Source: a virus
Virus record (IMG/VR): IMGVR_UViG_3300010885_011774
Location: 1-31,883 of that record
Length of the DNA: 31,883 nucleotides
Direction: 5' to 3' (one strand)
Shown here: one piece after another, positions 3,001 through 22,400 of the stretch
How the letters are laid out: the number at the start of each line of letters is the position of its first letter
How positions within the stretch are numbered: position 1 is the stretch's first letter
Made by a program: the position numbers and the translations under genes
Notes under the pieces: model-generated
The model's input: only the letters and a program-made list of their open reading frames with translations
Told to the model about the DNA's origin: nothing
Database searches by the model: none

Positions 3001-4834
3001 TCAAACTACAGAAGTTTATTCAGACGAACGTTTAACTCGTGATAGCGGATGGTATGATCCATTAGCACAAACTTTCTTAGTACAATCAACCGGTGGTGCA
3101 TTTATTACCAGCGTTGATGTATTCTTTGCAACAAAAGATATTGGCATTCCAGTAACTATGCAAATTCGTGAAGTCGTAAATGGTTATCCTGGTCAACGTG
3201 TATTACCATTCTCAAGAGTTACAATGACACCTGACAATATTAATGTCGACCCAGAAATTGGTGCAGAACCTACTACATTTAGATTTGAATCTCCTGTATT
3301 TTTACAAGATTTGACAGAATACTGTATCGTATTATTGTCTGATTCAAATAATTATAGAGTTTGGATTGCACAACTCGGAGAAAAAGCTGTTAATACAGAT
3401 CGTTTCATATCTGAACAACCCTATGCTGGCGTATTGTTTAAATCCCAAAATGCTTCTACATGGACAGCAAATCAAGAACAAGATTTGAAGTTTACAATTC
3501 GTTCCGCAGTATTTGATATTGCACAATATCCAGTAATTGAATTTAATAATGAACCGCTTCCTCCAATTATATTAGAAACTGATCCGTTTCAAACAAAAGC
3601 CGGAACAGATAAAGTGCGCGTATTTGCTAAAAACCATGCTATGCCAAATAATTCTTCAGTTATCATTTCTAATGTGGCTGCAGGAACATATAACGGTATA
3701 GTTACAACATCAACTACTGGACTAAATGGAACATTCACTATTGTAGATAGTGAAGTAGATTCTTTCGTAATTGATCTTGCAAGTAATGCTACTAATAGCG
3801 GTTTTGTTGGTGGAGAAAATGTAATTGCCACTGTTAACATTGGATATGATGCAGTAAACTTTATTGCTCAATCACAAGTATTTTCAGAAACTACATTAGC
3901 ATTTGGTATGACGCCTATTAATGAGTCATATAGTGCAGCTTCCGCAGAAACTTCTTTAATTCCAAATGTTACTACTTACTTTGATAATAAGAATATTGTA
4001 GCTTCTCAGACTAATGAAAACTTATCTGCGCTTTCTGGCAATAAATCATTAGTTGTAACTGCAAGATTGACATCTGAAAATGAAAATTTATCTCCTGTTA
4101 TCGATACTTCTAGAATGTCATTAACTACAATCTCCAATAAGATTGACACATACACGTATTCAACTAAAAATAATGATGATCTAGATTATAAAACAGTATT
4201 AACGACAGCTGGAAACAATGTAGCGTATGCCGGAAATATTATTAGTATCACAAATACTGGCACTTTAAGAAGTGATGCTACGGGTATTGCAGTTGGCAAA
4301 TATATTGATATAAGCGGTACAGGATCTGGAACTAATAATACCACAGATCCAATATTAGTGACAGCTGTTGCTTCAGATGGTTCTACCATTACTTGCGATC
4401 ATACATTTACAACGCAATCAGCAACCACCACTACTATTACTTTATTAGACAACTTCGTTAATGAGATTGCTCCTACTGGTGGCTCTTCTGAATCTAAATA
4501 TGTTACACGAGTGGTTAACTTAGCAAATTCTTCAACTTTCTTGAAGATTATGTTTGGTGCTAATATTCCAGCAGTAACTGGTTCAGATATAGAAGTTTAT
4601 TACAAACTATTACCTGCTGGTTCTACTACTGATATTACTAAATTCAATTTTGTAAAAGCTACTCCTATCGCTAATTTAGTTAAAACATCTAATCGCAATA
4701 CGTTTACTGATGTTGCATATGAATTAGAAAACTTACCTGTGTTCGATGCAGTTGTAATTAAGATTGTATTTAAAACTGGTAATTCTGCTCAAGTACCTAG
4801 AGTTAAAGATTTAAGGGTGATTGCTTGTGCTTAA
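2..4834 (+). CDS. Large DUF4815-type virion structural protein (5' end outside window)
   Basis: The frame is open without a stop from base 2 to the TAA at 4832-4834, so 1610 residues are visible and the true start lies upstream. The in-frame ATG at 821 is internal, not the start. The middle carries the DUF4815 signature of T4-like marine phage structural proteins: DFRPR (from about base 1121), YYLPRSDKLAL, KRYTMRDIGKLDKRIENLEYY near 1410-1475, and the following LSLLEQE. The N-terminal visible part has short beta-rich repeats (a GDYI/TAITDSDTLTID-like module) and a fibronectin-like piece (VLISGLTASKAY). The C-terminal half is Ser/Thr/Asn-rich with Ig-like beta modules, as in large tail or baseplate proteins. 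It is followed by fibre genes in the same direction. Family membership is a confident recognition; the exact place in the virion is not known. Confidence 0.88.
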   Translation, partial: SGYTFDRDVKQIFYDSGTTKTNIAANVYGKYTTLSGFITASTTTITGSSGTAFTTQLKVGDYIRTINSTAAYEFRRVTAITDSDTLTIDSAFSGTVSGAVYSRVATEINEPGGLPLLFPLAYSFIRNTRGGTGDSEQATTYTTTQRFDASTGAGQTSLTFSVGSATSPTTSGTEFNPAATSTDYILVNRTDGTIESPSGITLQNNGVDVLISGLTASKAYSLLAPVRKAGSPAQEKKKTLIDNATADFTTLASVTPLTLSLGKADGYRIVTIRMAADFTAASSNPATTTDITSWFTFDNGQRDTHYDVATITRKDGYPVPSGAVRVIFDYFDHSIGTAGDYFTVNSYSGEVPYNKIPYYISSTGVVALSDVMDFRPRIGDAGALFSGTGASQTEIPKIGFETSASYSYYLPRSDKLALNIDGSFFSVDGVASLSPEQPKDPNLGMLIAKLHISAFTLFPSQGSIQIETIDTKRYTMRDIGKLDKRIENLEYYTALSLLEQETKSLTIQDELGLDRFKNGFIVDSFKGSDLGDTASIDYRCSIDMSLQELRPFYTMDNINLLEVNQSDAARDTDGYALTGDIITLPYEERELIKQQFASRTENVNPFAIFTFLGSMTLNPPSDEWFEVDRRPDIVNNIEGNFTAVQTALEATGALGTVWGAWETNWVGQTRNIDRLVVTRGFDSRDYGLGAARWSDRRTFTQAELQAIGGDASNFGDASAGARVLTFQTQATTVGQSRTGIQTSVTPKIDYQVLEDRVLQSALIPYIRSRDLLFVCKGLKPNTKLFPFFDDTDISLFVTPATKINLTPTVGSTSQFNVETNVGGAAEEFARQVDGKAEVSYNKGDVVFVKLRGATTYNTQAVSPGTGIAVLVERQSTGTEDEAVYLMNIKGSFQDGDILKGSISGTEYEVNGSVIVATAGDDIITNFNGSTAGIFKIPNTDSIRFRTGIREFKLSDSNTGSLDFTTQGRGQYRAQGILETKQKTINAVRNAEISTQQVSESQTTEVYSDERLTRDSGWYDPLAQTFLVQSTGGAFITSVDVFFATKDIGIPVTMQIREVVNGYPGQRVLPFSRVTMTPDNINVDPEIGAEPTTFRFESPVFLQDLTEYCIVLLSDSNNYRVWIAQLGEKAVNTDRFISEQPYAGVLFKSQNASTWTANQEQDLKFTIRSAVFDIAQYPVIEFNNEPLPPIILETDPFQTKAGTDKVRVFAKNHAMPNNSSVIISNVAAGTYNGIVTTSTTGLNGTFTIVDSEVDSFVIDLASNATNSGFVGGENVIATVNIGYDAVNFIAQSQVFSETTLAFGMTPINESYSAASAETSLIPNVTTYFDNKNIVASQTNENLSALSGNKSLVVTARLTSENENLSPVIDTSRMSLTTISNKIDTYTYSTKNNDDLDYKTVLTTAGNNVAYAGNIISITNTGTLRSDATGIAVGKYIDISGTGSGTNNTTDPILVTAVASDGSTITCDHTFTTQSATTTTITLLDNFVNEIAPTGGSSESKYVTRVVNLANSSTFLKIMFGANIPAVTGSDIEVYYKLLPAGSTTDITKFNFVKATPIANLVKTSNRNTFTDVAYELENLPVFDAVVIKIVFKTGNSAQVPRVKDLRVIACA

Positions 4835-5066
4835 TGAACCTTTGATGAAAGTAGAAAACGAAATAGGATTATATCGAGATCCTGTTTCAAAGGTTATCAT
4901 AAATAAAGATGACATCTCATATAATAAATATTTACAAAATAGACAAAGATTAATTAATGCGCAACATCAGGTTGAAAAAAATACTACTGATATCAATGAT
5001 ATCAAAAACGAAGTAAGTGAAATTAAAAGTATGTTAGTTACTATTCTTGCTAACATTAAAAAATAG
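4827..5066 (+). CDS. Small coiled-coil virion-associated protein
   Basis: This is a 79-aa protein if read from GTG 4827, which sits 9 nt after an AAGGG ribosome-binding sequence at 4813-4817. The in-frame alternatives are TTG 4821 (too close to that site) and ATG 4845 (73 aa, no visible site). The start overlaps the stop of the DUF4815 gene by 8 nt, suggesting translational coupling. The N-terminal part contains LYRDPVSKVIINKD; the C-terminal half (from about NAQHQVEKN) is a heptad-like helix ending in a run of lysines. Short proteins of this form (a 'YRD' head and a coiled-coil tail) occur beside fibre genes in marine T4-like phages. A role in tail or fibre assembly is inferred only from position. 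Confidence 0.72.
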   Translation: MLNEPLMKVENEIGLYRDPVSKVIINKDDISYNKYLQNRQRLINAQHQVEKNTTDINDIKNEVSEIKSMLVTILANIKK

Positions 5067-5076
5067 AGAGATATAA

Positions 5077-6174
5077 ATGGCAGCTATTAATGTAAATCTA
5101 AGCGACACGTTTAACGGGTGGAGATTAAAAACTAATCAGATCGGTGATTTCGTAGGAGACACCACTGGTTTATTAACTGATGCAACGAATGTAGTTGCAG
5201 CTATTAATGAATTAAGATCTGCAGGTCATATTGACGGTGTTATTTCTACTGATGGTAATGAGTTTAAAGTAAATGTAGATTCACCAGATACATTTGAACT
5301 TGTATTAACCGCTGCTGGAAATTTATCTGTTACTGGCGAAATGACTTCAACAAAGTTTAATGGCCCATTAACAGGCAATGTAACAGGAAATTTAACTGGT
5401 GCTGTTACTGGTAATGCATCAACTGCTACAACGCTACTAACTGCGCGCACAATCAATGGTGCTTCTTTTAATGGTTCTGCAAATATAACATTCAATACAG
5501 ATGCAACTGCAGAAGGTAGTACTAATCTTTATTTCACGAATGCGCGTGCTAGATCAGCAATAAGTATTGCCGCTACAGGCGGTAATATTACATATAACTC
5601 AACGAGTGGTGAATTTAGTTTAACTAATGCTAATGTGGTTGCAGCTCTTGGTTATACGCCTTGGCATTCAGGAAATGATGGAGCAAGCTCTGGTCTTGAT
5701 GCTGACTTATTAGACGGTATGAATAGCGCTACAGCTGCAACTAATTCTACTATCGCAGCACGTGATAGTTCAGGCAATTTAACAGCAAATGTGTTTAACG
5801 GTGTTGCAACATCAGCTAGATACGCTGACTTAGCAGAAAAATATACTACTGATAAAGAATATGCAATTGGTACAGTCATAGTAGTTGCTATGGGTGGAGA
5901 TTCTGAATGTACTGCATCTTATTCTCCTGGACAAATTGCTGTTGGTGTAGTCTCTGAAAATCCAGCATTCTTAATGAATAAAGATGCTGAAGGTCAAGCA
6001 ATTGCTCTTCGCGGTCGAGTGCCAGTCAGAGTAATTGGACCAATTACAAAAGGTCAAACTGTAATTGCTAGTCTTGATGGCAAAGCAATTTATGGTGTTT
6101 TAAATCCTATTGCAATAGCTCTTGAAACAAGTCAAGAGTTTAAAGAAAAATTAGTTGAGTGCGTAATACTATAA
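5077..6174 (+). CDS. Tail fibre protein with C-terminal chaperone/peptidase-like domain
   Basis: 365 aa, ATG preceded by AGAGAG at 5065-5070. The centre has the glycine/asparagine fibre repeats LTGNVTGNLTGAVTGNAST, then ARTINGASFNGSANITF and TNLYFTNARARSAIS, which are standard shaft elements of T4-like marine phage fibres. From about residue 248 (ARYADLAEKY) the sequence changes to GTVIVV, AVGVVSENPAFLMN, ALRGRVPVRVIGPITKGQ. This C-terminal module is found at the end of many such fibres and resembles the intramolecular chaperone/peptidase G2-type endings. The role is a trimeric shaft with a self-assembly end. The family call is strong; chaperone self-cleavage is not shown by the sequence. Confidence 0.85.
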   Translation: MAAINVNLSDTFNGWRLKTNQIGDFVGDTTGLLTDATNVVAAINELRSAGHIDGVISTDGNEFKVNVDSPDTFELVLTAAGNLSVTGEMTSTKFNGPLTGNVTGNLTGAVTGNASTATTLLTARTINGASFNGSANITFNTDATAEGSTNLYFTNARARSAISIAATGGNITYNSTSGEFSLTNANVVAALGYTPWHSGNDGASSGLDADLLDGMNSATAATNSTIAARDSSGNLTANVFNGVATSARYADLAEKYTTDKEYAIGTVIVVAMGGDSECTASYSPGQIAVGVVSENPAFLMNKDAEGQAIALRGRVPVRVIGPITKGQTVIASLDGKAIYGVLNPIAIALETSQEFKEKLVECVIL

Positions 6175-6575
6175 TGACACACGAAGAAGTATTCTTTAAT
6201 TTTGTTATTAAGCATGACATATTAAATCATCTTGTGTTTGGTGACAAACCAGATGGGCAACAAGTAATTGCAATTGTTGGAGCTGATGATACTGCAATAC
6301 CATATATTGGAGATCTATTGAAGATTTCTAGTAATACAGTAATTGATCCTAATTGGGATGAAATTTATGAGAGTTTTATTAATATAGATCACGAGAAAGA
6401 ATCTGTAGATTATATACAATCTTTATTAGAATCTTATGATATTGATGAAACACAAACTTATATTGATGGTTTAGTTAAGAAGATGATCGAAAAGGGTATT
6501 GTAGCAAATAAAGTGTATGTACGAATACCTCCTACAGCAGATAAATCTTTTTATGACGAAGTCATAGAGGTATAA
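6174..6575 (+). CDS. Unknown protein within the tail gene block
   Basis: 133 aa from ATG 6174, which overlaps the preceding TAA in a TAATG arrangement; an upstream in-frame GTG at 6159 would add five residues. I do not recognise a family. The protein is acidic, begins THEEVFFNFVIKHD, has a hydrophobic beta-like segment (QQVIAIVGADD) and ends in a helical Lys-rich part followed by VYVRIPP. There is no signal peptide or membrane segment. Its coupled position between a fibre gene and the HxH protein suggests a tail or assembly role, but nothing in the sequence proves it. Confidence 0.7.
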   Translation: MTHEEVFFNFVIKHDILNHLVFGDKPDGQQVIAIVGADDTAIPYIGDLLKISSNTVIDPNWDEIYESFINIDHEKESVDYIQSLLESYDIDETQTYIDGLVKKMIEKGIVANKVYVRIPPTADKSFYDEVIEV

Positions 6576-6576
6576 G

Positions 6577-6942
6577 ATGGCAACAACAGAACGTAGTCCT
6601 AAAGCTAATACATTTGCAGATAACAGTCCGATAACTGGTTTGAGAAATAATATTGCCGCTGGAAATAATATTAATGCCAGCGACATCACTTCTTTGATCA
6701 ACTTAACTAATAGTTGGTTAGGTCATTTCCATACGTATGACGATGCGTGGCAACTTGCTACTTATGGTAATAATGGTGATAGAAATGACTACTATGAAGA
6801 TAAAAATACTGCAACGATTGGTGGAAGTATTGCAGCCATTGACAATACAACGACGATATTAGCTACTAAACATAACGAGTTGAGAAATACTATTAATACT
6901 CTAGGTCATCATACACACACGATCGATGATCGTACTGGTTAA
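6577..6942 (+). CDS. Small virion-type protein with two HxH motifs
   Basis: 121 aa; GAGG at 6567-6570 lies 6 nt before the ATG. Residues 33-49 form an amphipathic segment (NASDITSLINLTNSWLG) followed by H50-F-H52 and TYDD. A second HxH (H112-T-H114) followed by TIDDRTG is at the C-terminus. HxH motifs that bind metal in trimeric spikes and fibres are known from T4-type long tail fibre tips and other phage spikes, so a trimeric virion protein is likely. The first helix-HxH-YDD unit resembles the 68-aa cysteine-tailed peptide at 9142, which matters for interpreting that peptide. The stop codon overlaps the 3' end of the opposite-strand aminotransferase gene. Confidence 0.75.
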   Translation: MATTERSPKANTFADNSPITGLRNNIAAGNNINASDITSLINLTNSWLGHFHTYDDAWQLATYGNNGDRNDYYEDKNTATIGGSIAAIDNTTTILATKHNELRNTINTLGHHTHTIDDRTG

Positions 6943-8165
6943 CGCAATAATGCAGGGTCTTCTACGACTCTGCTAACTTTTTCTTTAAGCTCATCAAAGA
7001 ATTGTTTTTCAGCATTTAGAGGTATTAGTCCTCTAGCAATAGCATCATACTTAAACGTTGTCAATTGAAGGTCATGTTTAAGAGCAACTGATGCGAACCT
7101 AACGCCAACATCTCGGCGCCACTTCCTAGATTTCATATCAAAAGCAAAGAAGTTACCAACTTGTCTAGTTGATGTAATGTCGTGCTCACTCACTAACCAA
7201 TCTAAAAACTCTTCTACGAGTGCATGATTATCGTAATCGTTTTCTTCATATAAGTTTAATGCTTCGTTAGCCGCAGCAAGACCAATGACAGATCCACTAT
7301 TAGTCCATCCATGTACTATCCATTCATTTTCCAGCTGATTCCAAATTTGATTATGGATGGCAACAGCAGATAGCGGTACGTATCCCGCAGTAATGCTCTT
7401 AGATAGTATGATAAATGTTGGTTCTATTGGTAGTGCATAGTAATGAAATGGAGATCCAGTTTTAAAAAATCCAGAAGCTGATTCATCTAATATTAGGTGA
7501 ATATCATTGACTATACAAAAATAGTTTAACTCGTCCCAGAATTCATATGAACATTGTAGTACTCCTGACAAATAAGTAAATGGCTCTATAACGATAGAAC
7601 TAATCTTACACACATCTAATTTTGCTAGCTCATTTAATGTGGCTTGACCATCATTACCAAATGGAGATGATAACTTAATATTCTCTGGCCAATCGGGCAA
7701 GTGTTGTCCTAATCCACCTAAATCGCTTATAGCTCCTGTTAACCAAGTAGATCCGTGATAAGATCCCTTGAATGTAATTATCTTCGTCTTATCGCTCTTT
7801 TGTTTTAATCGTGCCATGTAAGATAATCTTAAAGCCGATTCTACTGCATCTGACCCAGAACTTCCAAAGAAAAATTTCTGGTGATGTGAAAAATATCCTG
7901 CCAATCTCTTTGAATACGTTACGCCGATCTCAGCCAACATACTATTATTATGTCTGCTGAATGGCAATTGCTTGGATGCATTATAAATAGCATTGGATAT
8001 TGAATGTTGAGAGTACCCCAGGTTGCAATTGATGTTGCCACACTGGGCATCTAGGATCCGCTGACCAGACTTCGTAATCAAATGGAAGTCCTCAGCGGAA
8101 CTGATGATTAATGGTTCAAGATCCGAGTGATTGGTGTAAGGAAGAACATAATTATAATTAAACAT
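6939..8165 (-). CDS. Class-III PLP-dependent aminotransferase
   Basis: 408 aa from the minus-strand ATG at 8165; a TTG 14 codons upstream (8207) is less likely because it would run into the divergent gene. All fold-type I class-III landmarks are present in order: GSSGSDAVE (101-109, cofactor phosphate), GSYHGS around H138, IEPF (193-196), the pyridine-nitrogen aspartate in LILDE (D227) and the Schiff-base lysine in SKSITAGYVPLSAV (K256). The length is normal, so it should be an active enzyme that moves an amino group to a keto or aldehyde substrate. Relatives include BioA, omega-transaminases and glutamate-1-semialdehyde aminomutase; the substrate cannot be read from the sequence. It is the only minus-strand gene in the window. 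It overlaps the tail-gene stop by 4 nt and starts 6-9 nt from the divergent gene, which looks like a later insertion. Confidence 0.9.
   Translation of the reverse strand: MFNYNYVLPYTNHSDLEPLIISSAEDFHLITKSGQRILDAQCGNINCNLGYSQHSISNAIYNASKQLPFSRHNNSMLAEIGVTYSKRLAGYFSHHQKFFFGSSGSDAVESALRLSYMARLKQKSDKTKIITFKGSYHGSTWLTGAISDLGGLGQHLPDWPENIKLSSPFGNDGQATLNELAKLDVCKISSIVIEPFTYLSGVLQCSYEFWDELNYFCIVNDIHLILDESASGFFKTGSPFHYYALPIEPTFIILSKSITAGYVPLSAVAIHNQIWNQLENEWIVHGWTNSGSVIGLAAANEALNLYEENDYDNHALVEEFLDWLVSEHDITSTRQVGNFFAFDMKSRKWRRDVGVRFASVALKHDLQLTTFKYDAIARGLIPLNAEKQFFDELKEKVSRVVEDPALLR
6952..6986 (+). terminator. Rho-independent terminator for the upstream tail operon
   Basis: GCAGGGTC (6952-6959) pairs with GACTCTGC (6966-6973) across a 6-nt loop: an 8-bp stem with one G-T pair. 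It is followed by the T-rich stretch TAACTTTTTCTTT. It starts 10 nt after the stop of the last + strand structural gene. It lies inside the 3' coding end of the minus-strand aminotransferase, so the same bases serve both strands. A separate short palindrome (ACGATC, GAT, GATCGT at 6919-6933) precedes it but has no T-tract. Confidence 0.65.
7982..7989 (+). promoter_or_regulatory. Candidate T4-type late promoter for the radical SAM operon
   Basis: An exact TATAAATA box on the + strand lies inside the minus-strand aminotransferase gene, 186 nt before the start of the 321-aa gene at 8175. The operon needs a + strand promoter here because the preceding operon ends in a terminator. The octamer also encodes part of the aminotransferase, and in AT-rich DNA a chance match is possible, so the call is tentative. 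Confidence 0.4.
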
Positions 8166-8174
8166 GGAGATATG

Positions 8175-9140
8175 ATGAAACCTATAGTATTTTTTCAATG
8201 TGGTCAAACAAAAAGTACCCCATGGTTAGATGCTGTCCAAACATGGAATTCTGATTATGACAATAAAGGTTTTTGGATAAACCCAAAGGAACCACAATCT
8301 TATCTATATCACTTCGAAAAGAAAGAGAATAAGATTGTATTTAATAAGAATAATGATTATGTAGAAGATGCTGTCGACTTTGTACTTACTAAACAGTTTG
8401 TACAACCCGGCATGGACATGAATAAGTCCGTAACGCGCGCAATTAATATAGATTTTGTAATTGATTGGTTAGATAAAAACCAAGAAAAGTCATTGGGATT
8501 TGGAACTTTCATGAATGGTGGAACACACACTGATATTATTCAGAATAGTGTGTTCTATACTAGAAATCCTTGGATGGGTGGACACCTTTATAATGTAGAG
8601 AAAGATGAATTTATAACCGAAGATTCAAATAAGCATATTAGTACTGTGACATGGTTCTATGCTTATAAAATGAAAGATGCTCCAATATATCTAGTGGTGT
8701 TTAATCCTTCGGTATTAGTATTAGGCGATGATGTAGAGTTTGAAACACATAAAGCGAGATTTAGAAATCTCGATGCGCACATGGGAGATTTTGCTACTCA
8801 GTTCTTAAAACCTAAGATGAGTAAGAATGCATATCCGCTTGAAGATAAGTGGTATGTAGTAAAGGGCAATGAGTTTGATATGGATATTGGTGCATTAGGT
8901 ATTCTTAGACAAGCACTAGATGAAAATATAGATCCATCATTAATAAAAATTGCATCTGACTTAAATATTGATAATTTGGGATCTAATAAATACAAAGTAC
9001 GATTTAAAAATGGACAACAAAGTGGCTATATTAGTTTAAGACTAAATACTGGAAATACCATGGATTGGACATTTATTAATAGTGGAAACCGTTTAGTATA
9101 CAACATCAAAGTTACTAAACATTACGAAGAGGTAAATTAA
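8175..9140 (+). CDS. Unknown 321-aa protein, first gene of the radical SAM operon
   Basis: The start is set by GGAG at 8166-8169, 5 nt before ATG 8175 (a second ATG is at 8172; an upstream GTG at 8127 lacks support and would overlap the divergent gene). I do not recognise a family. It begins MKPIVFFQCGQTKSTPWLDA, has aromatic-rich stretches (GFWINP, WMGGHLYNV, TWFYAYKM) and a C-terminal beta-like part (YKVRFKNGQQSGYISLRLNT). There is no signal peptide, membrane helix or cofactor motif. Only one nucleotide separates it from the cysteine-tailed peptide gene, so it is probably co-expressed with and may act with that peptide, for example as a virion partner or carrier. This function is conjecture. 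Confidence 0.75.
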   Translation: MKPIVFFQCGQTKSTPWLDAVQTWNSDYDNKGFWINPKEPQSYLYHFEKKENKIVFNKNNDYVEDAVDFVLTKQFVQPGMDMNKSVTRAINIDFVIDWLDKNQEKSLGFGTFMNGGTHTDIIQNSVFYTRNPWMGGHLYNVEKDEFITEDSNKHISTVTWFYAYKMKDAPIYLVVFNPSVLVLGDDVEFETHKARFRNLDAHMGDFATQFLKPKMSKNAYPLEDKWYVVKGNEFDMDIGALGILRQALDENIDPSLIKIASDLNIDNLGSNKYKVRFKNGQQSGYISLRLNTGNTMDWTFINSGNRLVYNIKVTKHYEEVN

Positions 9141-9141
9141 G

Positions 9142-9348
9142 ATGGGTGTAGAAAATACAAGTCAGTTTGATACGGGTATAGCAACTCCGGCAGAAAAGGC
9201 CGCAGCAGATACCGTTTCTGCTGATACATTTAGACAAATGCTGGATGTGCTAGAATCATTAGCATCTCACAGCCACATATTTTATGATGATTATAACACT
9301 GTCTGTGAATGTCAGTGTGCTTGCGCTTGTGGCCGTGGGACTGTATGA
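9142..9348 (+). CDS. Cysteine-tailed small protein, candidate RiPP precursor / modified virion peptide
   Basis: 68 aa; AGAGG at 9128-9132 precedes the ATG. Residues 15-25 are Ala-rich (TPAEKAAADTV), residues 26-42 form an amphipathic helix (SADTFRQMLDVLESLAS), then H43-S-H45, IFYDDYNT, and the tail CECQCACACGRGTV with cysteines at 55, 57, 59, 61 and 63. The helix-HxH-YDD part resembles the structural protein at 6577. Four radical SAM genes and a DUF3050 gene follow, and the ATG of the first overlaps this TGA (ATGA), so the peptide and enzyme are translationally coupled. This matches the organisation of RiPP loci, with residues 1-54 as leader or scaffold and the Cys tail as core. Alternatives are an unmodified metal-binding tail (metallothionein-like) or a virion tip with Cys clusters. 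That it is a real gene is well supported; the precursor role is inference. Confidence 0.82.
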   Translation: MGVENTSQFDTGIATPAEKAAADTVSADTFRQMLDVLESLASHSHIFYDDYNTVCECQCACACGRGTV

Positions 9349-11066
9349 AGACGATTTGGTTAAAAACCGAAGCTCAAAGACAAAGACAAGAAGATCATAA
9401 AGCCTCAGTAGTTGAGACTGATGGTCAGTTTCAATTTCTTAGTGAGAAGATTATCACTCCTAAGGGATTGGACAAAATTAACAAGTTAATCTCAGTCGTT
9501 CCGAAGGAAGACGAGACAATACTTAATATAAGCAATACAAAATATCTGTTCAGTGAGTTGAAACAGATGAACCTTATATTAACGAATGCCTGTAATTTAT
9601 CATGTTCTTATTGTTATGAGCAGCACAAGAAAGACTTTGGTAGGTTTACCAATGAGTCTCTCTTAACTGCGTATAGATTCTTAAAAGATGCAAATACTAA
9701 TCAAAAGAAAGTATTTCAATTCTTTGGTGGTGAGCCTCTTATCCACAAAGATATCATCTTAGATTTCCTCCGTAAGAATACAACAGAATTAGAAGTTAAC
9801 TCTCGCGGTGAAAGTAATACTGTCATCGGCATAGTAACTAACGGGTTATTATTAACTCAAGAACTAGTCGATGAATATTTCTCGCATGACTTTACATATA
9901 TGCTTATCTCGCTGGATACCGATAAGTCAGAGGTCGATCATAGAGAGATCGGTCAAGATAAGATAAACAAGCTCATGGATCAGATCCAAAACATCCCAGA
10001 AGAGCCCAAATTCCAAAAACGAGTGACTGTACGTTGTACACTTGCAAGAGAGAATGCACCATACTTTGCAGAGTTTGTTGATAATTTATATGAGCGAGGA
10101 ATTCGTCGCTTAGTTGTTCATCCTCTTATATTAGATTCTGCGCGTGGATTTATTCAATGGAGCGAACAAGAATGGAATATTTTACATAAAGATATCCTTA
10201 ATTCATTAGATAAGTATGAAGACTTACAAATACATTTCAGTGAAGGTGTTGGTAAAAAAGGTGAAGAGAATTGCATGATAGGTTCAGATATGATTGCAAT
10301 CGATGCAAGCGGTGATTTTTCTGGTTGTTACTTTTTTACAAACCAAAAAGGTGGATCAACTGCTGATACTATATTAGGTAATATATTCAATAATACCATT
10401 TACATTGATCGTTATAAACACTTCCAAAAAGAATATGCTAAAATGTTTGAAGAGGAAGAGCAATGTAAGACATGCGATTATAAAAATGCATGTTATCAAT
10501 GTCCTGCTGGTAATTTAGATACTGGTACGCGTATGTTTAGACCAGATGATATGTGCCAAAAGATTGTTAAGTTATATGTCGATTTGCAAGAAGATATTGC
10601 TAAGAAACAATTTAAGATTAAATATGATACTTTAGTTCGTGCTTTACACACTGAAGGGTATGAACAGACATTCTTAAAAGCTATAAGTTATATGTTATTT
10701 TATTATGTTTATCAATATCACCCATCACTCGATAAAGTCCACAATGATCTAATTAACAAATTTAAGACTCCGCAAAAAATGCTTGGATTTTGGTCAGAGA
10801 TCATGGAAGGTAAACATAAAGAACTTGATAAAGTTCAGCCAGAAGAATTCCTTGACGCAATAGAACATTTAATAGGCGATAAACAAATAAGTATTGATGA
10901 TTTTTATTATCAAATTTTAGCTAAGAGAAATATGCCAACTGGCAGAATAGTTAAAGTAGAAAACCAAACACAAGAAGTATTTTTCTTAGCATTACTCCAC
11001 GTATTGATATTAGCCTCTGATGACCGAGCTTTAGATGATGCAATCAGCTATAAACTTCTACAATAA
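9345..11066 (+). CDS. Radical SAM/SPASM peptide maturase with extra C-terminal domain
   Basis: 573 aa from ATG 9345, coupled through ATGA to the peptide gene; an in-frame ATG at 9309 inside the peptide gene is unlikely. The radical SAM cluster motif is C83-x3-C87-x2-C90 (NACNLSCSYCYEQ), with GGEP at 128-131 in the SAM-binding region. The SPASM domain has C310-x12-G-x4-C328, C374-x2-C377, C383-x2-C386 and C404, enough for two auxiliary 4Fe-4S clusters, as in sulfatase- and RiPP-maturating enzymes. These enzymes abstract hydrogen from peptide residues and commonly make thioether or C-C links. About 160 further residues follow (from about 413), helical and of no known family; they could bind the peptide. 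The likely substrate is the adjacent 68-aa Cys-tailed peptide (inferred from linkage). Confidence 0.9.
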   Translation: MKTIWLKTEAQRQRQEDHKASVVETDGQFQFLSEKIITPKGLDKINKLISVVPKEDETILNISNTKYLFSELKQMNLILTNACNLSCSYCYEQHKKDFGRFTNESLLTAYRFLKDANTNQKKVFQFFGGEPLIHKDIILDFLRKNTTELEVNSRGESNTVIGIVTNGLLLTQELVDEYFSHDFTYMLISLDTDKSEVDHREIGQDKINKLMDQIQNIPEEPKFQKRVTVRCTLARENAPYFAEFVDNLYERGIRRLVVHPLILDSARGFIQWSEQEWNILHKDILNSLDKYEDLQIHFSEGVGKKGEENCMIGSDMIAIDASGDFSGCYFFTNQKGGSTADTILGNIFNNTIYIDRYKHFQKEYAKMFEEEEQCKTCDYKNACYQCPAGNLDTGTRMFRPDDMCQKIVKLYVDLQEDIAKKQFKIKYDTLVRALHTEGYEQTFLKAISYMLFYYVYQYHPSLDKVHNDLINKFKTPQKMLGFWSEIMEGKHKELDKVQPEEFLDAIEHLIGDKQISIDDFYYQILAKRNMPTGRIVKVENQTQEVFFLALLHVLILASDDRALDDAISYKLLQ

Positions 11067-12153
11067 AAGAGAAAAGCCTCTTAATAATGTTAAGATGCTT
11101 ATCATTTATCTTGGGAATAAATGTAACTTCGATTGTGTATATTGTGATCGAGGTTATATCGAATCTCTCGGTGGACAATCATTAAATGGCAATACAACTC
11201 AAGAGTTGCAAGATTTTTTCTTGTGGGCAGAAAAACAAGAAAATATAGTTGAGTGGATATCTTTCCACGGTGGAGAACCTTTATTATTTGCTAAACGTAT
11301 GGAGCAATGTTTAGAATGGCTGATGCCTATCGCAGAGCGCAATAGTTGGAAAGTTGGCATGACTACTAATGGTTCATTAGTTAAAGAGAATGAGCATATA
11401 TTCCAAAAGTATTCTGGTAAACTTGGTGCAACTATTAGTTATGATTTTATGTTCCAAGAAGAAAATCGTGATAAACTGAATGTGATAGAAATGGCAGAAG
11501 TATTAAATCAACATTGTTTTGATTGGAAATGGCAATATGTATTACCTATTGAAGATAAGCGAGCATTCTCATTTGAAAATATCCAATCAATAATTGATAC
11601 ATGCTATAAGACTGGATGCAAGACTGTTAATATAATCCCGCTTAGACACCATCGAGGTGAAGATAAGTTTGACGTTATCATTGATAGAATTAATCTTCCT
11701 CAATTCTTTGGTGCATTCTTAGAATTTATACAGATACTTTATATTAAGAAGTTAAATGTATTCATAGATGGTAACTATGATAAGATTGATAAAGCATATT
11801 TTGCAGAACATAATAAGGTGATACTATCTCCTGATGGTTATTTGTATCCAGAGTTTGATTTCTTAGAATATAGAGTTGAGAATACTCGCATCGGTAAGTG
11901 GCAAGGTGGAGTAGAAGTTTGGGAACCTTTAGGTGATAAAGGTAGGATCCAAGATTCTTGTAATACATGTGAACAAAAACCAAGTTGTGGTTTAAAGTAC
12001 CTTTATAAATTATTTGATAGACAACCGCAGGGAAGTTGTAAAAACTTCTATAAGTTTGTTGATGTGGCAATCATGCATAATGCTGAATTGAAAAAAGAAA
12101 AAAGTCTATTCCAAAGGATAGGTATAGATAATCAATTCAAGGTTAATATATGA
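11035..12153 (+). CDS. Radical SAM enzyme with a single-cluster (twitch-like) C-terminus
   Basis: 372 aa; ATG 11035 (or 11038) overlaps the previous gene by 32 nt. An ATG at 11095 would cut off the first beta strand of the barrel. The 4Fe-4S motif is C30-x3-C34-x2-C37 (GNKCNFDCVYCDRG), with GGEP at 79-82 and TTNGS around 110-114. The C-terminus has ILSPDGYLYPEF, the usual turn before a SPASM cysteine but with no cysteine there, then C309-x2-C312-x5-C318 and C335. This fits one auxiliary cluster rather than two. It is a probable second maturase acting on the same peptide or on the product of the first. The family is certain; the reaction is unknown. Confidence 0.88.
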   Translation: MMQSAINFYNKREKPLNNVKMLIIYLGNKCNFDCVYCDRGYIESLGGQSLNGNTTQELQDFFLWAEKQENIVEWISFHGGEPLLFAKRMEQCLEWLMPIAERNSWKVGMTTNGSLVKENEHIFQKYSGKLGATISYDFMFQEENRDKLNVIEMAEVLNQHCFDWKWQYVLPIEDKRAFSFENIQSIIDTCYKTGCKTVNIIPLRHHRGEDKFDVIIDRINLPQFFGAFLEFIQILYIKKLNVFIDGNYDKIDKAYFAEHNKVILSPDGYLYPEFDFLEYRVENTRIGKWQGGVEVWEPLGDKGRIQDSCNTCEQKPSCGLKYLYKLFDRQPQGSCKNFYKFVDVAIMHNAELKKEKSLFQRIGIDNQFKVNI

Positions 12154-13211
12154 TTACTGAAGATTTTGAAAAGGCCAATAATTTACACGAGTATTGGTTG
12201 ACTCAGGACGCACTACATCCAGTTAACTATGATGTATATTTTAGTTTAGGCACTAGATACTATTGTGCAGCTGGTTGTAAGATATGCTATATCGATAAAA
12301 ACTTTAAAAGCATAAAACCAAACTTAAACACATACTTCCCAAAGATAACACAAAAATATGAAGATATGTGGCAAGAAGTGTTTTCACATTTCTTGGTAGT
12401 TCGTACTAACGACGATATGTTATTCTTAAAGTTAAATTATCCTGACGCATATAGATGGTATCAGGAGAATGCACATAACTTAGAATATTGTTTTACTGAT
12501 AATGCCATATTTAGAACTGCTAAGATACTTGATACAATTAAATTTAAAGCTTTAGCAAATATTAGTATAAGTTCAACCTTTTTAAAATCCGTTAATCCCA
12601 ATAAGTTGATGGATGCATTAGAAAGATTAAACGATAAATCTCCTATCTTAAAACTTAAGTTTATAGATGATGGATATCCAGAATTGTTTGCTCCATATAT
12701 TGAGTTGGCAAATAAGCATAATATGGATAATATAGTTCATCACAACTTTCTGGGTGATAGAGAAGTATTAGAACACGAATGGGCTCAAGAACAAACTACT
12801 TGGGTTGATAGTGATGAAGATGGTTTGATGCAGATTTATAGAGAATCTGTGCATCTATACTTCGATCGGTGGTATTATTCTAGTGATGATGCAAGTGATT
12901 TGAATGAAGAAGCGTTTCATCATGTAGAAGATAATTTTGATAGAGAAGCATTCCTAACAGATTTATTGTTAGGCAAACAGAAAGCTTATAAAAAGTGGGC
13001 CAATAGGACAAAGAATCCTAAATTTAAGGATTACTTTAATCTTGTTGGAGAATACAATATTAATCCTAAATTTAATTTTATTCCTGGATTGATGATCCCA
13101 CCGTATAGTAAATACTGTTATAAGTTATTAGAAAATGGATGGGTGAAGACTAAATTCGGTTTAGTCAAACCTAATGAAGGCACCATTGTGCCAATTTTGG
13201 GGATAAAATGA
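12150..13211 (+). CDS. Divergent radical SAM protein without GGE or SPASM
   Basis: 353 aa, coupled to the previous gene by ATGA. It has a radical SAM cysteine triad C39-x3-C43-x2-C46 (YYCAAGCKICYID), placed after a hydrophobic strand (VYFSLGTR) as in true family members. The usual GGE motif is not recognisable at the expected place (VVRTNDDMLFL stands there) and there is no clustered C-terminal cysteine set. The later part is acidic and aromatic-rich (a DSDEDG stretch and YFDRWYYSSDDASD). It may be a catalytically distinct enzyme, or a partner protein derived from a radical SAM fold that binds a cluster and helps the others. Membership rests on the triad and the neighbourhood, so the function is open. 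Confidence 0.8.
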   Translation: MITEDFEKANNLHEYWLTQDALHPVNYDVYFSLGTRYYCAAGCKICYIDKNFKSIKPNLNTYFPKITQKYEDMWQEVFSHFLVVRTNDDMLFLKLNYPDAYRWYQENAHNLEYCFTDNAIFRTAKILDTIKFKALANISISSTFLKSVNPNKLMDALERLNDKSPILKLKFIDDGYPELFAPYIELANKHNMDNIVHHNFLGDREVLEHEWAQEQTTWVDSDEDGLMQIYRESVHLYFDRWYYSSDDASDLNEEAFHHVEDNFDREAFLTDLLLGKQKAYKKWANRTKNPKFKDYFNLVGEYNINPKFNFIPGLMIPPYSKYCYKLLENGWVKTKFGLVKPNEGTIVPILGIK

Positions 13212-14539
13212 GTTTTAGTAAATTCAAAACAGAGTCTGGTAAAGTATTCTATTATAGAAATTTAGATAACAGCCTTCACAATGATAAGGGCGAGATACTA
13301 TCTTTGCCTCCAAAGGAAGGATACGAGTTCTTTGAATCTGTGCAACACAACTTTGGTGTACAGCATAAGACTAATAAACCAACCGCGTTGCGCATCTTAT
13401 TGGGGCATGCATGCAATTACTCATGCACATATTGTATGCAAAAAGACATTGGTAATCCCGACGAAAGACCACAAAACTTTTGGCTTGAATCATTTGTAGA
13501 ATCTGTAAACAAATATCTCGATCTTGAAAATTTAGAACGCATCGAACTTTGGGGTGGAGAACCATTCCTGTATTGGAATGATATGATGCCAATTATGAAA
13601 TTGCTTGACGGTCCAGGTAGACATTTTTATATCTCTACAAATGCATCTCCACTAAGACAAAAACATGTAGATTTCTTTAAGACATTAACTGCTAGTGTAA
13701 TGATGGGCATTTCGCACGATGGACCAGGGCATGAAAGACTTCGTGGTGAAGATATTTTCAATAGAAAAAACGTTGTCGATGTTATCAAACAATTTGATGA
13801 TATGAGTCCTAAAATACAATATAGTTTTAATGCAGTAGTCTCTGCAACCAATTATGATTTATTTGAGATCAATGATTATTTTAAATCCATAAAAGATAAA
13901 TTGGGTTTAAAGCATGCTAGAATTAGTTATATTCCTGCACGAGTTTATGATGACACAGATTCTAAAAATTCTGCTGAACATGTCATTAAAGGCGATGACT
14001 TACCAAAGTTTAAAACAATAGTGCATGATTATATTAAAGCTGCCATTAAGCAATTGAAAGAAGGTGGAGATCGCATTTTAAATTCCAATGTAATTGATGG
14101 AGATGCTGGAGTTCTTAAATATGCTGCTTTAACTCGACATCAAATACCAATTACTATGACTTCAAATTGCGGAGCTGATGCTGCAGATATCCTTTCTATG
14201 GATATTATGGGACAAGTTAGATTATGCCCACATACCTCTGAGAAATTTAAAGGAGGTCATATTAAAGATATTAAAAGCGTTAAGATTATACAATTAGATT
14301 TAGATAGAAAACACGAGCATTGCTATACATGTCCAGTTAGAAGACTTTGTAAGTCTAGTTGTCCTATTAAATTTCCCGATGAAGTGTTTATGCATAATTG
14401 TAGAGTAGAAAAAATTTGGTATTCTGCCATTCAACAAAATGCATTTTCATTATTGTTTAATGAACCCATAGAATTATTAGAAACTGGATTAAATGAAATT
14501 AGACCTAAAGAAGATACAAGAACACCGATCTCAGCTTGA
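13208..14539 (+). CDS. Radical SAM/SPASM maturase (anaerobic sulfatase-maturase type architecture)
   Basis: 443 aa, joined to the previous gene by ATGA. An N-terminal extension of about 60 residues (KFKTESGKVFYYRNLDNSL and onward) precedes the barrel and might hold the substrate. The cluster motif is C69-x3-C73-x2-C76 (GHACNYSCTYCMQKD), with GGEP at 116-119 and ISTNAS at 142-147. The SPASM domain is canonical: C321-x13-G-x4-C340, then C372-x2-C375-x5-C381-x3-C385 and C398, all seven cysteines in place for two auxiliary clusters. Of the four radical SAM genes this is the closest to textbook SPASM peptide maturases. Its substrate is inferred to be the peptide at 9142. Confidence 0.91.
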   Translation: MSFSKFKTESGKVFYYRNLDNSLHNDKGEILSLPPKEGYEFFESVQHNFGVQHKTNKPTALRILLGHACNYSCTYCMQKDIGNPDERPQNFWLESFVESVNKYLDLENLERIELWGGEPFLYWNDMMPIMKLLDGPGRHFYISTNASPLRQKHVDFFKTLTASVMMGISHDGPGHERLRGEDIFNRKNVVDVIKQFDDMSPKIQYSFNAVVSATNYDLFEINDYFKSIKDKLGLKHARISYIPARVYDDTDSKNSAEHVIKGDDLPKFKTIVHDYIKAAIKQLKEGGDRILNSNVIDGDAGVLKYAALTRHQIPITMTSNCGADAADILSMDIMGQVRLCPHTSEKFKGGHIKDIKSVKIIQLDLDRKHEHCYTCPVRRLCKSSCPIKFPDEVFMHNCRVEKIWYSAIQQNAFSLLFNEPIELLETGLNEIRPKEDTRTPISA

Positions 14540-15248
14540 GAATCATTCTCTTCTTGTAACTAATACTATACAATCTATTGAAGATCTTAGAATCTTCATG
14601 AAATATCATGTATTTGCTGTATGGGATTTCATGAGTTTATTGAAAACTATACAACATAATGTGGTGCCAACTAGTAACATGTGGTTACCAACTGCCGGAA
14701 CAAGATCTGATATTGCTAGAATGATCAATGAAATAGTACTCTGTGAGGAATCTGATATATCACCAGATGGAAAATCATCTATAAGCCATTTCGATTTATA
14801 TTTACAAGCAATGATGGAAGTAAATGCTGATACAATGCCGGTTCGAAATTACTTAGATGTTGTTAGTAAATTTAATTCACATATAGATTGTGAATTTGTT
14901 CCAAAAGCTTCTATGGATTTTGTAAAAAGCACATTTGAAACTATAAAAATGGGACCTCATTGCGCTGCAGCATCATTTTGTTATGGTAGAGAATCAGTAA
15001 TTCCGGCAATGTTTAAAAGATTACTTAAACAGATCGATATATCAGAGACCGATGCTCCCAAGTTTCACTACTATTTAGAAAGACATATACAAGTTGATGG
15101 CGAAAGCCATGGACCCATGTCTGAGCATCTAGTTAATTATTTTTGTAAAGACGATCCATTTTTAATTCATGAGGCTGAACAAGCCGCGATTATAGCCATC
15201 AAAGCACGAATTAAACTATTTGATGACATAGAATCGCAACTCATATAA
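14493..15248 (+). CDS. DUF3050 protein, haem-oxygenase-like fold
   Basis: 251 aa; ATG 14493 lies 47 nt inside the radical SAM gene before it, and the N-terminal R-x2-L-x2-H segment of the family is only kept with this start. It matches DUF3050 end to end: FMKYHVFAVWDFMSLLK (35-51), INEIVLCEESD (78-88), SHFDLYLQAM (98-107), CYGRESVIPAMF (163-174), YYLERHIQVDGESHGP (193-208). The conserved H39, E86, H99, E167, H198, D202 and H206 could be metal ligands, as in haem-oxygenase-like dimetal oxidases. This is inferred from the fold, since no DUF3050 activity is known to me. It closes the radical SAM operon, so it probably acts in the same pathway, as the related-fold PqqC does after the radical SAM enzyme PqqE. 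Confidence 0.85.
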   Translation: MKLDLKKIQEHRSQLENHSLLVTNTIQSIEDLRIFMKYHVFAVWDFMSLLKTIQHNVVPTSNMWLPTAGTRSDIARMINEIVLCEESDISPDGKSSISHFDLYLQAMMEVNADTMPVRNYLDVVSKFNSHIDCEFVPKASMDFVKSTFETIKMGPHCAAASFCYGRESVIPAMFKRLLKQIDISETDAPKFHYYLERHIQVDGESHGPMSEHLVNYFCKDDPFLIHEAEQAAIIAIKARIKLFDDIESQLI

Positions 15249-15288: not shown

Positions 15289-15624
15289 ATGTCTCAGTTA
15301 GTTAACCTAGTTATAGATCAAGGCTCAGACTTTGTGGCCACATTGGACATTGAAGATTCCATTGGTACTCCAATCAATCTTACGCCCTATACAGTTCGTG
15401 GCCAGATTAGAAAAACATATTCGTCTTCCTCAGCTGTAGTAATTGGCTGTGCAAAGACTACCAATCAGGGTGAAGTAAAATTGACTTTGACAGCAATACA
15501 AACTAGCGCAATGCGCGACGGTCGTTATGTCTATGATATAGAAATTGTTCATTCAACGCTTGGCACAGTTATCCGAGTTGTTGAAGGGCAAGTAACAGTA
15601 ACACCAAGAGCAACTAGACCTTAA
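15289..15624 (+). CDS. Small virion protein with Ig/BppU-like beta domain
   Basis: 111 aa. The opening pattern is a beta strand, then DQGSDFVATLDIEDSIGTPINLTPYTVRGQIR. It resembles the N-terminal beta-sandwich module seen in phage tail-tip and baseplate proteins (dQGsdF...L.d..G.piNLTgYt..gqiR). The rest is also beta-rich, ending GQVTVTPRATRP. It is the first gene after the late promoter, which fits a structural role. No strong ribosome-binding site is visible. The fold call is moderate and the exact position in the virion unknown. Confidence 0.75.
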   Translation: MSQLVNLVIDQGSDFVATLDIEDSIGTPINLTPYTVRGQIRKTYSSSSAVVIGCAKTTNQGEVKLTLTAIQTSAMRDGRYVYDIEIVHSTLGTVIRVVEGQVTVTPRATRP

Positions 15625-19426: not shown

Positions 19427-22400
19427 ATGGCAGAGTTTAAATTAGGTAGACTTAAATTTGTATGGAAAGGTGCATGGACGGCGTCTGCTACATATGTAAA
19501 AGATGACATCGTAAGACACGGTGGAAAATCATATGTGTGTGTGCAAGGACACGTTGCTGGCGGTACCTTATATTCGGACGATGCCAAATGGCAATTGATG
19601 AATGACGGTTTTTCATGGAAAAACGTATACACTGTAGCAACATATTATAAAGTAAATGATATCGTAGCATACGGTGGTTCAACATACATTTGTACAACAG
19701 CACATACAGCAGCTGGTGGCGGAATATTAAATCCAAGTTATTGGGATATATTCGCTAAAGGTGTTGAAGTAGAAGAATCTTGGGATTCAACTGTTGATTA
19801 CCAAATTGGCGATGTTGTTTCATATGGCGGTTATACTTATTACGCATTAGAAGCAAATGATGACGTTGTACCTACTTCAGATGTTACTGTTTGGAGACCT
19901 TTTGTTGAAGGTCTAAATAATCGTGGAAATTGGGTTGCATCAGGTTCTGGTGTATTACCATATAGAACTGGTGATTTAGTTCGCTTTGGTGGTAATCAAT
20001 ATTTAAATATTGCAGACTCTACAACACAAAATCCGTATAATGCTAGTTATTGGGAATTATTTAGTCAAGGTTTTGCTTGGCTAGGAAACTGGACTAGCGG
20101 AGTTGCTTATAAATTAAACGAAGCTATTAAGTTTAGCGGATCAACATATATTTGTATTCAAGCACATACTGCTAGCGGAGCAAATGATCCTGGCGCTGAT
20201 ACAGTTCATGCTTATTGGAATATATTAGCTGACGGTGCTGCTGCATCAGTCGTGACTACACGAGGTGATACAGTTTATCGTGATGCTAGCGGTGCTGCAC
20301 GACTTCCAATCGGAACATTAGGTGCTTCACACACAGATCATGATGGATCTACTCATCAAATTCAACCAATCTTAGTAGTTAATCCAGCTGGTACAGAACC
20401 AGAATGGAGCGATGATGCTCATATTGGCGTAGAAACAATTCACGTTCAAGATCATGTCATTGTTGGTGAGACTGCTGGTACTAGTGCTTCAGCTACTGTT
20501 TTCGTAGGTGAAGATGCACAACTTTATTTAACAGACGATCATCAATATGTAGGGTTTGTTGGTTTGACAGATACAAAGTTCTTAGCTATATCAGATGTTG
20601 ATGCATTCGCACAAATGTCACTAAAGAATATTAATGCCGGTTCTGCAGCATCAACTGATTTAATTTGTTACACCGATGATGGTGATAACGATTCAGGTTG
20701 GATGGATATGGGTATCACATCTTCTGGATTTGATATTACGTCTGGTTACGGTATTACTGGTGTTCATGATGGTTATATTTTCATGAATGCTCCAGTTGGT
20801 TCAACTGGTCTTGGTAATTTAGTAATCGCAACTGGCGATAATGGTATTGAAAAAGATATCGTATTCGTTACAGGCGGTTTTGATCCTGCGGTTAATACAG
20901 ATGCTGAAAAAATGCGTATTATCGGCGAAGGTCGTAGCGGTGCTGTATTTACTGGTTCAATAGCAGGCAACGTATTAACAGTTACTGCAAAAGCAAGCGG
21001 AACAATCGTATTCGACGGCACAAAAACAATTACTGGTACTGGTATTGTTAACGGAACTACTATTACTAGTCAACTTACAGGTACTGCTGGTGGAACTGGA
21101 ACGTATAGCGTAGATCAAAGACAAACTCTTACATCAAGAACAATTACACAACAAAAAGATCCAGCTGGTATTGAAGTCTATATTAACACTGCTTCATACA
21201 ATCCATTTACTGGTGCATTAAGAGTACAGGGCGGTGTGGGTGTTCAAGGCAATATCAATTTAGACGGTGAGATCCAAGCTTATGGTGGAGCAATCTATCA
21301 AGGGCGTGATGGTGAAGTCACTGCTAAACAGCTTACACAAGATGATACAGTATATCCAGGTTATACCGGCCTAACAAATGCTTCTGCAGTGTTTACTGGT
21401 CATGCTGATGACTTTGTACAAGTAGCTTTAAAGAACTTTAATAGCGGTACAGGTGCTTCAACAGACATGATCGTGTATGCATCCAATGGTGATAATGAAT
21501 CAGGTTGGATGGATATGGGTATCACCTCTGAAAACTATAATGATGCAACGTTTACTGTTACTGGTCCATCGACTGGTTACATATTCATGTCAGCGCCAGC
21601 GGGATCATTATCTTCTGGCAATATGTTGATTGGTACTGATGAAACTGGAACACAAAATGATATCGTATTCTTCACTAATGGCTTTGATGCTGGTAATGAA
21701 AAATTACGTATCATTGGAGAATCTCGTGCAGGTCACGCAGAAGGTGTAGAAGTTTATGCAAATACTGAAGCTACTAGTGTAACTACTGGTGCTTTACGAG
21801 TTGATGGTGGTGTTGGTGTTCAAGGTAACTTGTATGTTGGTGGTAACGTTAATATTACAGGTGCAATTTCTATCGGTGGTGCTGGTTCATCACTAGAAAC
21901 TTCAACGCTTGCAGTTTCAGATCCTATGATTAGAATGGGTACTGGTAACTCAACAGATGCAGTCGACTTAGGTTTCTATGGAATCTATAGCTCAAAAGCA
22001 ACTACTATCAACGTTGTTGGTGGTATCAATGCATCAACGACTACTATTACTGTAGTAAGCACAGCTGCATTTGGTGCTACTGGTCATTTATATATCGGTA
22101 GTGAAGAAATAACATACACAGGTAAAACAAGTACAACATTTACTGGATGTACTCGTGGTGCAAATGGTACAACAGCTGCTATTGCAGCAAATGGTGCGAC
22201 GGTTTACCAACCAAACTTTGCTGGTATAGTTCGTGATGCATCAGACGGTGCATTTAAAATATTCAGTGGTTTAGATACAGTTGCTCCTTTATCAACTGTA
22301 CCGTTTGGTGGTGCTGGATTAGTATATTCACCATTGACTGTTGGCGCAATAACTTGTGGTAGTATAACTTCTAGTGGCGATCTCGCAGTAAATGATGGCG

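Follow-up and report, generated by a model that had tools for sequence, protein, structure and literature searches.

The 31,883-bp virus record IMGVR_UViG_3300010885_011774, analysed as a whole and called the window here, carries near its tail genes a cassette in which the gene for a 68-residue cysteine-rich peptide (PEP) is followed by four genes for radical S-adenosylmethionine (SAM) proteins and by a DUF3050 gene. The peptide and the enzymes are strongly associated across different phages. We think it fairly probable that PEP is a small virion protein of the tail tip, with a cysteine tail that the enzymes crosslink. The six genes are as follows.

9142–9348, + strand: PEP, a 68-residue peptide with an N-terminal helix-type stretch and HxHxxxDDY, then a CxCxCxCxC ladder and RG.
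9345–11066, + strand: RS1, a radical SAM protein with SPASM-like C-terminal Cys; its open reading frame (ORF) is also open from 9309.
11035–12153, + strand: RS2, a radical SAM protein with CX3CX2C and four invariant auxiliary Cys.
12150–13211, + strand: X3, a divergent radical SAM protein in which the Cys of CX3CX2C are the only invariant ones.
13208–14539, + strand: RS4, a radical SAM protein with the SPASM-spaced Cys CX2CX5CX3C.
14493–15248, + strand: DUF3050, a heme-oxygenase-like, probable di-iron protein; accessory, missing from some cassettes.

All six ORFs were confirmed on the + strand at the positions proposed in a first-pass annotation made from the sequence, and so were the junctions it had described as ATGA or overlaps of 32–47 nt, with the RS1 start set at 9345. 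This start, an ATGA junction read from the sequence, is likelier than 9309 because it fits the homologues better in alignment. RS2 overlaps RS1 by 32 nt and DUF3050 overlaps RS4 by 47 nt, while X3 and RS4 begin at ATGA. The cassette is flanked by a tail-fibre-like gene (5077–6174) before it and a gene at 15289 after it, and the tail genes of the window have PHROG matches to tail fibre, baseplate and "L-shaped tail fibre assembly" families. The six-gene composition given by the annotation stands; the locus is larger than it stated, with two further genes, U8160 and that of an HxH protein, lying upstream.

Relatives of PEP were found at 18 viral loci by peptide search. The DNA pattern used for PEP, HxHx[F/Y]xDxYxxxCxCxC, matched 51 stretches of viral contigs, against about 0.1 expected by a rough estimate; two further hits of the pattern, L114 and L116, look like chance ORFs and were rejected. 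A scan with an RS1 profile returned 61 loci, of which 53 have a close RS1 homologue (above 200 bits). A peptide, as recognised by a hidden Markov model (HMM) of the known PEPs, lies within 10 kb in 51 of these 53. The two close loci that lack it, L154 and L173, are both cut by contig ends, the contig of L154 beginning 52 nt before RS1 and that of L173 ending inside RS1. Six of the close RS1 contigs were new, and four of them (L147, L168, L172 and L179) have the peptide; the other two are those cut by contig ends. In the converse direction, 50 of the 51 pattern stretches were examined (the 51st being L011), and an RS1 homologue was present in the same piece for 45, the exceptions being L038, L040, L047, L055 and L061. 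Searches of whole records for radical SAM and DUF3050 genes took in 50 of the 52 peptide contigs, and radical SAM domains were found in all 50, in 49 above the cut-off. The partnership of peptide and enzymes is thus well supported. The check that the first-pass annotation had suggested, for enzymes with no Cys-tailed peptide nearby, has been run and did not refute it.

The peptide itself is highly constrained. An alignment of the 41 distinct PEP sequences from the 51 close RS1 loci that have the peptide shows seven invariant residues (41/41), namely the two H, the first D, the R, the G and two Cys of the ladder, and the second D and the Y are kept in 40. The ladder has five Cys in 32 peptides, four in 4, three in 4 and six in 1. 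Its Cys stand at every second residue, and between them only Q (45 times), N (44), A (29), E (21) and D (14) occur. All Cys lie within the last 25 residues, and three peptides have an extra Cys as the final residue. In L085 the peptide is interrupted within the ladder by an intein (L085 5549–6172; TIGR01445, 27.2 bits, cut-off 24.5), which NCBIfam recognises and Pfam does not. Inteins favour essential sites.

The Fe–S ligand cysteines of the enzymes are fully conserved. The CX3CX2C motif is invariant in all distinct homologues of RS1 (42/42), RS2 (37/37), X3 (37/37) and RS4 (38/38), and over the same sets seven further auxiliary Cys are invariant in RS1, four in RS2, six in RS4 and none in X3. 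The Pfam radical SAM family PF04055 is matched above cut-off by RS1 (6.6e-17), RS2 (2.6e-9) and RS4 (1.3e-11). X3 matches no Pfam family at E ≤ 1, PF04055 included, and has no significant match among PDB sequence profiles. By motif and predicted fold, X3 is a radical SAM protein. Its AlphaFold2 (AF2) model (pLDDT 94.5, pTM 0.91) has as best VIA-align matches MoaA, SuiB, SkfB, ChlB, viperin and EpeE, with Z 9.2–11.1 and root-mean-square deviation (rmsd) 3.8–5.0. The top match, MoaA, has Z 11.1 and rmsd 4.2 over 246 aligned residues, and the 35 best rows are all radical SAM enzymes. Plain Foldseek gave no match to this model at E ≤ 0.001. The earlier count of four radical SAM genes, one of them divergent, is borne out by the motif and the modelled fold.

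The SPASM domain has the seven-Cys pattern CX9-15GX4C..CX2CX5CX3C..C. RS1 has seven auxiliary Cys but spaced as CX2CX5CX2C, and RS4 has CX2CX5CX3C with six invariant Cys. The profile scores fall just below cut-off, with PF13186 at 21.0 bits in RS1 (cut-off 21.5) and TIGR04085 at 25.1 bits in RS4 (cut-off 27). The best NCBIfam match for the RS1 of the window, the RS1 of PhiRP12 and a double enzyme of L085 is the Cys-Asp/Glu thioether maturase PapB (NF047865), at 114.9–166.2 bits; within the window, RS1 scores 114.9, RS2 50.8 and RS4 47.9 bits, all under the equivalog cut-off of 340. The best PDB match of the RS1 profile is 5wgg, which we take to be CteB. RS2, RS4 and X3 have cyclophane and epimerase radical SAM families as some of their weaker relatives. 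The enzyme set is also extended at other loci. The L085 double enzyme is one 758-residue protein holding two radical SAM stretches, and several cassettes have in addition a long gene that couples a radical SAM domain to a B12-binding-like one, with each domain near or over its Pfam cut-off in L084, L082 and L095; at other loci such a gene is recognised by motif and size only.

The usual gene order is U8160 and PEP, in either order, followed by RS1-RS2-X3-RS4. The enzymes are on the other strand in L095 and L104, the peptide comes after the enzymes in L109, and DUF3050 has moved in L101, L107 and L088. Since the gene order varies, the linkage is more than one inherited segment. The distant locus L029 keeps the whole series in order at 47–64% protein identity to the window (PEP 48, RS1 64, RS2 55, X3 47, RS4 58, DUF3050 53%), and a NifU_N gene and two Fe-S_biosyn genes follow soon after its cassette. 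At L029 16150–19758 there is also a weak JmjC_2 match below cut-off, and ORFs after the Fe–S genes resemble fatty-acid desaturases by reading. The L100 region (3773–13254) has five more CX3CX2C ORFs, and its 36-kb phage record, shared with L099, has nine radical SAM matches.

The carriers have different backbones. They include PhiRP12, a record of 379 kb and another, of 543 kb, that has the pairing in divergent form. G050 (279,845 bp), the record that we take to be PhiRP12, has a gene series in which RS1, RS2, RS4 and DUF3050 correspond by order to PhiRP12 ORFs 76, 77, 79 and 80. These ORFs are annotated as radical SAM, Fe–S oxidoreductase, MoaA and MgoB in the available text of the PhiRP12 paper (PMC5468394), and we take MgoB as the DUF3050 gene by position. 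The cassette is also present in three bacterial assemblies, namely a Bdellovibrio metagenome-assembled genome (MAG), an Alteromonadales MAG and a scaffold of Ewingella americana E4 (NZ_RCZD01000008.1). In the 253-kb Ewingella scaffold the cassette is near tail and baseplate genes, and sampled pieces have a GC content of 0.40–0.42; this scaffold looks like a co-assembled large phage. Searches by tblastn with the peptide, the enzymes and the HxH partner in an annotated phage collection, which may omit near records and does not include the PhiRP12 and PhiRP31 accessions, gave no matches or weak ones of 20–50% identity.

The DUF3050 protein matches PF11251 with E 3.3e-76 (256 bits, cut-off 22.2) and PDB 9vwb with E 5e-55. 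The residues E85/E86, H99, E167, H198, D202 and H206 are kept in 24 of 24 homologues. They correspond to the ligand pattern E-H-E-H-D-H given for heme-oxygenase-like di-iron proteins in the accessible part of PMC4520260, and DUF3050 is probably such a protein. The gene is present in 26 of the 50 records and lies some 45 kb from the cassette in G028. Synthesis of the cofactor pyrroloquinoline quinone (PQQ) combines a peptide with a SPASM radical SAM enzyme and with one of the heme-oxygenase-like type, and together with the di-iron ligand pattern this lends something to the idea that PEP is the consumed precursor of a small redox cofactor, PQQ- or mycofactocin-like, for phage or host. We regard that as very unlikely, since DUF3050 is absent from the other 24 records, some of them short fragments, the ladder varies from three to six Cys, and none of the six window proteins has a PqqD-like Pfam domain. 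The window further differs from the PqqA–E system in having several radical SAM enzymes and a Cys ladder.

Upstream of PEP lie the following genes.

6577–6942, + strand: HxH partner, 121 residues, with two helix-HxH-DD modules related to the N-terminal half of PEP.
6939–8207, − strand: class-III aminotransferase (PF00202), between the HxH partner and U8160.
About 8172–9140, + strand: U8160, a conserved partner of about 322 residues directly upstream of PEP; the start is inferred from homologues.

Forty-seven loci were mapped, with near-duplicates and the three bacterial assemblies among them; 44 have a U8160 homologue no more than 3 kb from the peptide, and 43 have an HxH partner no more than 8 kb from it. 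The partner has no Cys ladder, and its HxH is conserved as in PEP. The neighbouring HxH proteins belong to the phrog_31780 family, and in L094, L090 and L101 the HxH modules form parts of proteins of 294–452 residues. An HMM built from these neighbour modules, with no peptide included, matches 41 of the 47 peptide ORFs; in total it gave 85 matches in 4930 ORFs, against none in reversed and one in shuffled sequences. By this comparison of sequences, the N-terminal half of PEP and a module of the neighbouring phage protein are related. A 122-residue protein of the Ewingella scaffold carries both the ladder and two weak module matches. A scan with the HxH partner of the window returned only its own near-copy, and neither this partner nor U8160 has a significant match among PDB sequence profiles. 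The U8160 model (pLDDT 77.6) has a protein of Ralstonia phage RP12 as its sole strong fold match, and Foldseek gave no trustworthy match in the PDB. An immunoglobulin (Ig)-like reading of residues ~209–325 was rejected, as its VIA Z of at most 7.4 is within the noise level of the tool. At the interval of the aminotransferase, the closest relatives of the window have a gap of about equal size.

The same comparison bears on another explanation of the ladder, as a metal-binding strand (zinc, iron or Fe–S) in a virion tip, in which the Cys stay free and the enzymes modify other residues, for example turning the H, F/Y, D and Y of HIFYDDY into cyclophanes or epimers. The HxH and the alternating Cys are both potential metal binders, H, H and D are as conserved as the ladder, and RS2, RS4 and X3 have the weaker relationships to cyclophane and epimerase families noted above. 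We nevertheless consider both parts of this explanation possible but unlikely, since HxH is kept in partner proteins that have no ladder and so need not be a modification site, the nearest relative of RS1 is a maturase of Cys thioethers, and the residues between the Cys are restricted to Q, N, A, E and D.

Neighbouring genes were compared with known families at two sets of loci. In the first set, 6 of 10 neighbours, those six coming from PhiRP12, L107 and the Ewingella scaffold, have a tail, baseplate or virion structural match, whereas the neighbours tested at L130 (Bdellovibrio), L087 and L094 matched no tail or virion family of named function. In the second set, around L185, L190, L189 and L155, a tail or virion match was likewise found for 6 of 10. 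According to PMC7029224, T4-like marine phages have hypervariable tail regions rich in auxiliary genes, so the cassette might be a hitch-hiking metabolic one with incidental tail neighbours. This seems to us a most improbable account, given that peptide and enzymes occur together in phages whose backbones differ, that several of these have tail or virion genes next to the pair, and that PEP shares a module with a neighbouring protein.

Another alternative is a classical phage-borne ribosomally synthesised and post-translationally modified peptide (RiPP), which would be modified, cut and released as a toxin, a signal or a superinfection-exclusion factor. A short precursor with SPASM-type maturases is the usual layout of a radical SAM RiPP locus, and a short gene-encoded precursor linked to maturases, the general mark of RiPPs, was found at 51 of the 53 close RS1 loci and in 50 of 50 peptide records. 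The C39 peptidase (PF03412) and the ABC membrane domain (PF00664), the only two families searched for in this regard, were found in none of 26 phage records, of which seven are 160–379 kb long and many are fragments. Because they were not found, a secreted toxin or bacteriocin is not preferred. With the module relation of the N-terminal half of PEP and the position of the cassette near tail genes also against it, we judge release of the peptide to be decidedly unlikely. The first-pass annotation had suggested that the product belongs to the virion and is not a secreted toxin, a view that is thus favoured indirectly, by the module homology, the tail and virion neighbours, the missing C39 and ABC domains and the arrangement at L189, which is described below.

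Eight loci of the RS1 scan are the most distant, and a regular expression found no PEP in them. Three of these show what may be longer forms of the same arrangement. L185 carries, besides five genes of radical SAM type, two HxH proteins, one of them of 127 residues and with 12 Cys following its module. In L190, a baseplate wedge gene is followed, about 4 kb on, by the gene for a 207-residue HxH protein that ends in a 14-Cys ladder. The repeats of L189 resemble the module but lack the HxH letters; after them comes a 12-Cys ladder running straight into SDERLKTNI, which we take to be a tail-fibre chaperone signature; the next ORF matches the C-termini of tail spikes and tail fibres. The ladder proteins of L185, L189 and L190 have no Pfam match, and no comparable module was seen on reading the other five distant loci. 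Two further phage contigs have Cys-rich ORFs near other radical SAM-type genes, with 33 Cys in 230 residues at L186 (11184–11876) and several ORFs of 35–57 Cys at L188 (12–5803).

We propose that PEP is a small protein of the phage particle and would be produced together with the tail proteins. Its most likely place is as a tip subunit, whether of a tail fibre, of a spike or of a baseplate appendage. Its N-terminal half would be one copy of the helix-HxH-DDY module that the neighbouring phage protein has in two copies; this conserved module may be recognised by the enzymes, or dock with them, and would be retained in the mature protein. The C-terminal ladder would be the substrate of the adjoining radical SAM enzymes, usually four. 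By analogy with PapB, their radical chemistry would join Cys sulfurs to nearby Asp, Asn, Glu or Gln side chains, and the outcome would be a rigid, thiol-free strand that assembles as a stiff tip together with the HxH partner and U8160. DUF3050 or the B12-type radical SAM enzymes may make further changes in some phages. The linking of a CxCxC ladder appears feasible because PapB, according to the accessible part of PMC9413430, accepts Cys-Xn-Asp with n from 0 to 6 and also nested links.

Several observations weigh against this proposal. The spacing of the ladder is unlike that of PapA-type ranthipeptide precursors, in which CX3D/E motifs are repeated and which PEPs do not resemble in this respect. 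The neighbour-module HMM matches the PEP of the window weakly (E 0.007, or 0.002 with its nearest partners left out of the HMM) and misses 6 of the 47 peptide ORFs. Four of the 10 neighbours in each of the two sets have no tail or virion match. The RS1 profile was built from 14 loci reached through the peptide; its scan carries less bias than the pattern yet is no independent test, and 47 of the 53 close RS1 contigs were already known from the peptide searches. On the side of L173 that is not cut, 10 kb contain no peptide. The enzyme set is variable, since L087 has only RS4 and a 695-residue CX3CX2C protein in its 19.9 kb.

The system has partial counterparts among known ones. Like PapA/PapB, it places a Cys-rich ribosomal peptide beside a SPASM-like radical SAM enzyme; it differs in scoring under the PapB cut-off, in its CxC ladder, in having usually four enzymes, and in its tail-region setting, with C39 and ABC membrane domains not found in the 26 records. 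Thioether-type maturases, those of SCIFF (CteB) and of CXXX-repeat peptides, are among the next NCBIfam matches of RS1, although the scores are well under the equivalog cut-offs and the substrates differ. The tips of phage fibres and spikes that carry HxH metal sites or C-terminal chaperones (T4 gp37 and gp12, S74 type) share with PEP the HxH motif, and the L189 ladder precedes a C-terminus of the spike or fibre type; PEP has 68 residues and no fibre domain.

We did not find such a peptide–enzyme system described in the open-access literature, a scope that left most subscription papers and bioRxiv preprints outside. The first-pass statement that no described phage system of this composition was known to its author agrees with this search as far as the system is concerned, whereas radical SAM genes have already been noticed in named phages. 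In the accessible portions of the papers, they are noted in PhiRP12 and PhiRP31 (PMC5468394), in Aeromonas phage 332-Vera (PMC12390700), in FLC6 and S13 (PMC8066314, PMC11898562) and in pelagimyophages (PMC7029224). These portions treat them as miscellaneous genes and do not describe the peptide, the third enzyme or a maturation role; in one, strings of radical SAM genes in phages are called "highly unusual" (PMC12390700). The phages 332-Vera, FLC6 and S13 and the pelagimyophages were compared by description only. RiPPs of marine prokaryotes have been linked to phages by co-expression, as reported in the available text of PMC11118758. For PhiRP31, the available text of PMC5468394 reports 32 virion proteins identified by mass spectrometry, with raw data in PXD006355.

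Elsewhere in the window, a tail fibre at 19427–22912 has three stretches of carbohydrate-binding module CBM5/12, and the segment from 29172 to 31762, at the window end, has a tryptophan-halogenase-like gene (phrog_2928) and two 2-oxoglutarate (2OG)-Fe(II) oxygenase-like genes (phrog_81). ATAAATA, presumably the T4-type late promoter core, has 10 matches in the window against 21 expected, all 10 on the + strand, and was not used as evidence.

Peptide chemistry by radical SAM enzymes is familiar from the natural products and cofactors of bacteria. In the present case the likely substrate has a relative among the proteins of the phage tail region and is accompanied by the enzymes in different phages, one of them a record that matches the cultured phage PhiRP12. 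It is tempting to extend the proposal from the three- to six-Cys ladders of the window type to the 12–14-Cys tails of L185, L189 and L190 in large phage records. We would give an even chance that several phage lineages crosslink Cys-rich tail-tip strands into thiol-free needles by means of dedicated radical SAM enzymes, as a widespread and hitherto undescribed form of virion maturation. If confirmed, this would be an enzymatic crosslinking step in the assembly of a virus particle and a new class of substrate for radical SAM enzymes, and it would explain the strings of radical SAM genes in phages.

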